Origin: Paucimonas lemoignei
GTDB taxonomy: Bacteria; Pseudomonadota; Gammaproteobacteria; Pseudomonadales; Pseudomonadaceae
Assembly (NCBI GenBank): GCA_900475325.1
Contig: LS483371.1
Span: 868,001-932,000, forward strand
Length of the DNA: 64,000 nucleotides
Direction of reading: 5' to 3'
The translations under genes were made by a program, and so were the position numbers. The notes beneath the pieces were generated by a model. That model did not search any database. It was not told the origin of the DNA and was given only the letters and a program-made list of their open reading frames with translations. Of this stretch, positions 28,476-29,196 are shown piece after piece; position 1 is the stretch's first letter, and every line of letters begins with the position of its first letter.

Positions 28476-28513
28476 GTCCTTAAGTTCGCGATATCCAGTG
28501 TCTATCCGCCAAT

Positions 28514-29089
28514 TGTGGAAAACAATTTTGACGCCCTCCCAAACCGCGACATAAAGCCGCTGCAAATGGTTGTTTTGTCACGCTTTTGACTTGTTCAGGT
28601 TTACTGTGGAACTGCTTGTGAATAACGTGGGTGCAGCTGGCTGCAGGCCTTTGTTTCCGTGGCGTGTAGCGTGGCGGTTAAAAAATGATCAGTGAATTTT
28701 CGGTGAGCTGGGCGCGTGTTTGTCAACGGCTTTGGGGCTGGTTTTTCATACAGGTCCTGAGCAGGTTCAGCCTGTGGATAAGTCTGTGGGCAAGCGTTGG
28801 AAAGAGTCCGCAAACCGGCACTGTATATGGCCTCGCGCTACCGTTGGAGATTTCAAAACCGGATGTTGTAACACTGGCGTTACATGGTAGACGCTCAAGG
28901 TCAAGCTAAAAAATCTGTTCGGCTCTTCTGCAGCCCTCGTAAACCGTGACCTTCATGCAAAACAGTTGCCCACTGAATGTGTGTGTCTGGCTGTGGATAA
29001 GGTGGGTAAAACCCTCTGCAAGCCGTGTCGGCTATGGCTTGGCGTAACCTGGTTGTTTTTTGTACAGTCTAATCGTTAATTTATCCACA
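28514..29089. promoter_or_regulatory. Cluster of DnaA boxes
   Basis: Three perfect TTATCCACA boxes: 28773-28781 (minus orientation), 28992-29000 (minus) and 29081-29089 (plus). One-mismatch boxes are at 28514-28522 (TGTGGAAAA) and 28617-28625 (TGTGAATAA). A secondary TGTGGGCAA follows the first perfect box. The 28476-29196 stretch has no convincing gene. A perfect box is expected once per ~130 kb of both strands by chance, so three in ~320 bases is striking. No dnaA, dnaN, rpmH or parAB is nearby, so a titration or regulatory site is more likely than oriC. Confidence 0.65.
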
Positions 29090-29196
29090 GACTTGCCCGC
29101 AAACCCTCTGGGCGGCATGCTGCTGGGCTGTTCAAACCGTTACTGGCAGGCGCAGTTGCCTGGACCCCTTCAGCTCGACACCCTCAGGAGAATGAA

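Follow-up and report, generated by a model that had tools for sequence, protein, structure and literature searches.

What does a cluster of DnaA boxes do in a long non-coding gap far from dnaA? The gap, here called locus A, measures 833 bp and occupies positions 28364..29196 of the window, the whole 64,000-nucleotide stretch of Paucimonas lemoignei DNA that was analysed. It is bordered by livF (27647-28363) and by an SDR open reading frame (29197-29961), both names having been read from the translations. Judged from its sequence, the gap is rather likely to be a DARS-type site, a control site that reactivates DnaA, in a form characteristic of Pseudomonas, and it probably contributes to the timing of DNA replication. 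We favour this reading because the gap has the exact spacing of the Escherichia coli DARS core and carries a Fis-like site at a fixed distance from it. A first-pass annotation of the window had proposed a datA/DARS-like locus that titrates or reactivates DnaA, or a DnaA-controlled promoter, and these two features would place the locus on the DARS side of the first proposal.

The gap contains three perfect TTATCCACA boxes at 28773(-), 28992(-) and 29081(+), two one-mismatch DnaA boxes at 28514(-) and 28617(-), and a TGTGGGCAA partner box at 28785-28793. All of them bear out the first-pass annotation. So do the long livF-SDR gap without coding sequence and a nested arrangement in opposite orientations, AAGTCTGTGG / CCACAGACTT, which falls inside an inverted repeat, I2. 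Over the whole window, boxes with at most one mismatch number 12, compared with 6.6 expected, and five of these are in the livF-SDR gap. The annotation did not mention the geometry of the boxes, the weak boxes at 28966 and 28980, or the Fis-like sites at 28676-28690 and 29051-29065.

The core of module A2 (28966..29000, plus strand) is composed of box I TTGCCCACT (28966,+), box II TGTGTGTCT (28980,-) and box III TGTGGATAA (28992,-), with offsets equal to those of E. coli DARS1 and DARS2. Its Fis-like site, GGTTGTTTTTTGTAC (29051..29065), is located 59 bp from the start of box III; it matches the loose consensus defined below exactly, and the published consensus with one mismatch. The core of module A1 (28591..28625, plus strand) is a weaker copy with the DARS-core offsets 0/14/26, formed by box I TTGTTCAGG (28591), box II TGTGGAACT (28605) and box III TGTGAATAA (28617). 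Its Fis-like site, GGTTAAAAAATGATC (28676..28690), is likewise 59 bp from the start of box III and matches the published consensus exactly. Between the two modules lies a conserved direct box pair, TGTGGATAA-3bp-TGTGGGCAA (28773..28793, minus strand), which is without an opposed box I. The third perfect box and its weak partner, TTATCCACA-3bp-TTGCCCGCA (29081..29101, plus strand), are shared with close relatives only. A REP-like long hairpin is positioned just 3' of livF (28385-28476). Five Rfam matches over this hairpin, all below the gathering score, were rejected, and a LexA-like reading of CTGGTTTTTCATACAG (~28738) was considered by eye and dropped.

The DARS core of E. coli is described as three boxes, box I being opposed to boxes II and III, with equal spacing in DARS1 and DARS2 (PMC5742627; this and the other papers are cited from excerpts). 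We read the DARS1, DARS2 and datA regions of E. coli MG1655 and assigned the DARS cores by scanning. The assigned cores, TTATCCACT(+)-5bp-TGTGGATAA(-)-3bp-TGTGTATTA(-) in DARS1 and TTATTCACC-5bp-TGTGGATAG-3bp-TGTGAAGAA in DARS2, agree with the excerpted description (PMC5742627). In the Pseudomonas module, 5 bp separate box I (+) from box II (-) and 3 bp separate box II from box III (-), and the offsets 0/14/26 are common to MG1655 DARS1 and DARS2 and to the modules of the window. The resemblance extends to the intergenic location, the set distance from oriC and, for DARS2 only, the presence of a Fis site. The two forms differ in their strong box, which is III in Pseudomonas and II in E. coli. 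Boxes I and II of the Pseudomonas modules are weak, non-consensus and TTGCCCACA-like, the modules often stand in tandem and among other genes than in E. coli, and an IHF site was not found in them.

We aligned 81 copies of module A2 on box III, which is perfect by selection. Box I averages 1.67 bits of information per base, box II 1.13 bits and, by selection, box III 2.00 bits, compared with 0.56 bits in the two spacers and 1.02 bits at positions just outside the core. Box II is thus hardly more conserved than its flanks. The box I-like motif TT...C.C is present at the expected offset in 78 of the 81 copies; 16 other offsets were compared, and none of them has it in more than 4. The TGTG of box II is present at the expected offset in 41/81 copies, and never in more than 11 at a different offset.

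The relatives of locus A were chosen by similarity of the SDR protein and not by their boxes; they are the best 80 of 383 loci, and the record titles of all but three name Pseudomonas. livF was detected ahead of the SDR gene in 77/80. Conservation of the boxes together with the flanking genes had been named as a test beforehand, and it was borne out for the minus-strand boxes: in the 1 kb preceding the SDR gene, all 80 relatives carry a minus-strand perfect box TGTGGATAA, and 73 carry two or more such boxes. It did not extend to the third box, which in the form TTATCCACA-3bp-TTG was present in 10/80 relatives, all of them close ones. The direct pair TGTGGATAA-3bp-TGTG is kept in 65/80. By a relaxed pattern, two modules of core and Fis-like site were detected at locus A in 16 of the relatives, one in 59 and none in 5. 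An alignment of 29 hand-picked sequences of the 81 displays short conserved blocks, mainly the boxes and a T-rich element, separated by variable sequence. The distances between the direct pair (28773-28793 in the window) and module A2 group around 142, 153, 208 and 219 bp, apparently in steps of ~11 bp, which represent few independent events.

The T-rich element was at one point read as a DNA-unwinding 13-mer. That reading was dropped because a Fis-like pattern holds at a fixed offset even where the T-tract is replaced by an A-tract. Two consensus sequences were used for Fis. The published one is GnnYAnnnnnTRnnC (PMC8682772; also a legend in PMC10380432). The loose one, GNNYRNNWNNYRNNC, was picked after the sites had been seen, and requires an A/T-rich centre. 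In 76/81 copies of locus A the loose consensus is matched at precisely 59 bp from box III; dinucleotide shuffles averaged 1.6 such matches and never exceeded 4. These 76 sites comprise 36 distinct 15-mers, with T-tract and A-tract versions among them. Among 98 modules from 20 genomes of the genus, the loose match starts at +59 in 86 and at +60 in 9 (95/98 together), and other offsets average 0.10. It is located at +59 in 8/9 modules of genus g16, and in family f35 at +60 in 2/4 modules and at +61 in the other 2/4; the single g15 module lacks such a match at +59/60. The four f35 stretches (L131-L134) combine the core and the Fis-like site at +60/61 with strong boxes II and III.

Under the published consensus the Fis signal stays at +59-61, with fewer exact matches: 33/81 copies of locus A (0.11 per other offset) and 45/98 genus modules (0.04 per other offset). 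When one mismatch is allowed, the counts rise to 76/81 at locus A, with 1.19 per other offset and up to 28 at a single offset, and to 94/98 in the genus, with 1.01 per other offset and up to 11 at a single one. E. coli DARS2 requires both Fis and IHF at set positions (PMC4245941, excerpt). The predicted Fis-like site would correspond to the first of these, at +59/60 in Pseudomonas and at +119 in E. coli. A strict IHF match was found in just 2/81 copies of locus A, and matches with up to one mismatch at +92-97 in only 4/97 genus modules. Since IHF sites are essential to DARS2, we would not file the locus as a DARS2.

A strict version of the core pattern was found in 54/59 genomes of the genus, the present genome included, and was without a match in 5/59. 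In the same 59 genomes the reversed pattern gave 0 matches, as did lengthening the first spacer by 1 bp (0/59), the only spacing shift that was tried. The strict pattern undercounts locus A, since module A2 of the window misses it by one base, the last of box I, and only 20/81 copies of the locus match. At the level of the order it is present in 11/244 genomes, all from families f1 and f35, and the reversed control gave one match, in an f35 genome. The modules seen in the genus belong to four kinds of locus. Locus B lies beside gbcA/etfB-like genes, locus C beside a yigZ-like gene, and locus D between HDAC-like and flavoprotein genes, all names being read from sequence. The present genome has three of them, A, B and C, with four module copies at B and two at C; the sites that were read hold one to four modules each. 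The flanking genes of locus D are present at 1.00 Mb, and no core was found between them. The core geometry together with a loose Fis match was detected at 6 of the 71 perfect boxes that were read, out of 115 in this genome, all six in A, B and C, and at three further boxes among the 71 Fis is matched but the core is missing.

The genome (5.92 Mb, one contig) contains 115 perfect boxes, compared with 17 for the reversed control. The estimate of one perfect box per 130 kb by chance, given in the first-pass annotation, holds for random DNA but not for this genome. The perfect boxes crowd at the origin, with 25 within 25 kb and 33 within 50 kb. Each arm is free of them over its final 463 kb, and the final 963 kb contain two, both arms together. 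The gradient from the origin is steep, apparently also inside genes. A site at 3.03 Mb is dif-like. At least three perfect boxes within 600 bp occur in only four places, which are oriC and three satellites: B at +0.58 Mb, A at +0.90 Mb and C at -0.61 Mb. The genome-wide count and clustering check proposed at the outset thus sets locus A among four clusters. Triplets within 317 bp are expected 0.002 times at the local box density. Locus A does not adjoin dnaA as oriC does, being 0.90 Mb from it. Twelve chromosomes from the family carry 33 clusters at 0.36-1.18 Mb from dnaA, which corresponds to 12-38% of the replichore; the clusters are the strict-pattern matches plus locus A of the present genome, two of the chromosome lengths (G059 and G005) are rounded, and dnaA was also looked for in two further genomes (G065 and G063), which were left out of the set. 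The sites are non-coding and keep their distance from oriC, as DARS sites do. Two inverted pairs of perfect boxes (1795740-1795762 and 5279263-5279285; L090, L093), each with 14 bp between the starts of its boxes, are situated away from the module loci. A dense group of perfect and weak boxes at ~5915216 (L081) is ~9 kb from dnaA and distinct from the boxes immediately preceding that gene.

Other functions have been considered for the cluster. The boxes could merely hold DnaA near the origin, as a titration sink, with the clusters as dense spots of a genome-wide field. The excess of perfect boxes over the reversed control and the 33 boxes within 50 kb of the origin agree with this, and the accumulation of DnaA boxes near the E. 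coli origin has been interpreted as titration (PMC12371093, excerpt). A sink, however, requires neither the fixed 5- and 3-bp spacing, nor weak boxes, nor a Fis-like site at a fixed distance, and the core pattern shifted by one base was found in 0/59 genomes. Titration of the E. coli kind (PMC12371093, excerpt) does not predict a rigid DnaA-Fis module. We consider a sink unlikely at this locus. A datA-like inactivating site, whose weak boxes would gather ATP-DnaA and hasten the hydrolysis of its ATP, would share with E. coli datA the character of a non-coding DnaA-box cluster distant from oriC. Boxes I and II are low-affinity by sequence, and boxes of this type prefer ATP-DnaA in E. coli oriC (PMC4285127, excerpt). 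On the other hand, E. coli datA depends on IHF between its boxes 2 and 3 (PMC5742627, excerpt), the arrangement of boxes 2, 3 and 7 with IHF between 2 and 3 was not found at locus A, and the layout of the boxes differs. The datA side of the first proposal is not favoured by this geometry, and we regard such a site as unlikely too.

A promoter of the SDR gene or of a small RNA, controlled by DnaA and Fis, would account for boxes upstream of the SDR gene in all 80 relatives. A consensus scan for sigma-70-like promoters found 0, with 0.5 expected in shuffles, and the matches to Rfam are the sub-threshold ones over the hairpin. The same module adjoins unrelated genes at B, C and D, and the promoter proposed in the first-pass annotation is very improbable. 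DnaA boxes adjoining AT-rich 13- to 15-mers are what an auxiliary replication origin might contain, but the AT-rich element retains the Fis-like pattern at its fixed offset, even when T-tracts are replaced by A-tracts, and in the 12 family chromosomes dnaA is 0.36-1.18 Mb away from the clusters; we find an auxiliary origin hardly credible. A plasmid search with the gap sequence returned no match.

Under the favoured reading, the DARS-type site would act by analogy with E. coli, where ADP-DnaA binds the DARS core, the complex is completed by Fis, ADP is released and ATP-DnaA is restored (excerpts of PMC4245941, PMC8682772 and PMC5742627). The present genome has an Hda gene, which scored above the cut-off, and a Fis-like open reading frame between dusB- and purH-like ones at ~947.6 kb, ~50 kb from locus A (names read from sequence). 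ADP-DnaA remaining after Hda-driven hydrolysis would assemble on boxes I-II-III, and on the core the AAA+ domains of two DnaA molecules would sit head to head. Fis, which is plentiful during fast growth, would bind and bend the DNA at a fixed helical phase, straining the complex. ADP would then leave, and apo-DnaA would drop off and take up ATP. The resulting rise in ATP-DnaA would promote firing of oriC.

In the literature found, the control of initiation by DnaA reactivation has been worked out in E. coli. DARS-like sequences are said to occur in many proteobacteria (review, PMC10380432, excerpt), and a published comparison covers E. coli, Shigella, Erwinia, Yersinia, Photorhabdus, Rahnella, Vibrio and Shewanella (PMC8682772, figure legend). 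The DARS core is already known, and it is the Pseudomonas form that appears to be new. The paper that the review cites for proteobacterial DARS-like sequences is presumably Fujimitsu et al. 2009. No title on DARS loci in Pseudomonas was among the matches listed by a search that mostly left out subscription journals, and an earlier notice is possible. If the reading is true, the loci are deletable, exactly placed sites with which to test replication timing in Pseudomonas.

The E. coli-type core pattern is present in 110/369 genomes of the class, at ~142 places, and the reversed pattern, the only control, gave 0. From these places we hand-picked 61 cores (60 stretches), spread over the genomes. 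The loose Fis consensus is matched exactly at +59-61 in 28/61 (mean 0.27 and maximum 3 in mononucleotide shuffles) and with one mismatch in 53/61, and the published consensus in 27/61 and 50/61, respectively. An IHF match with up to one mismatch is located at +92-97 in 43/61 cores. A strict loose-consensus Fis match at +59-61 is lacking in 33/61, and the IHF match in 18/61. In E. coli DARS2, one-mismatch IHF-like matches stand at +83 and, reversed, at +67, and Fis is matched strictly at +119. Between +9 and +140 of DARS1 nothing matches Fis strictly, and an IHF match is likewise absent. Neither site shows Fis at +59-61 even if a mismatch is tolerated, which speaks against a universal rule.

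We speculate, with a confidence just short of even, that an old DnaA-reactivation grammar is shared by the class, consisting of the core, Fis 59-61 bp from box III and IHF at about +94/95. E. coli would be an atypical, rearranged case. Pseudomonads would have done without IHF, placed the strong box at III and multiplied the module to three or four near-origin loci, so that timing would be tied to growth rate by Fis alone. Should the DARS reading hold, the finding also offers a simple search rule for Gammaproteobacteria, namely the core, Fis at +59-61 and IHF near +94. Thirteen of the class-wide cores, in nine genomes (two chromosome lengths approximate), are at least 75 kb from dnaA and are thus not a dnaA-linked origin. 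Across the class-wide stretches (L170-L229), a Fis-like site is frequent at +59-61, as is an IHF-like one near +94/95, unlike in E. coli DARS2.
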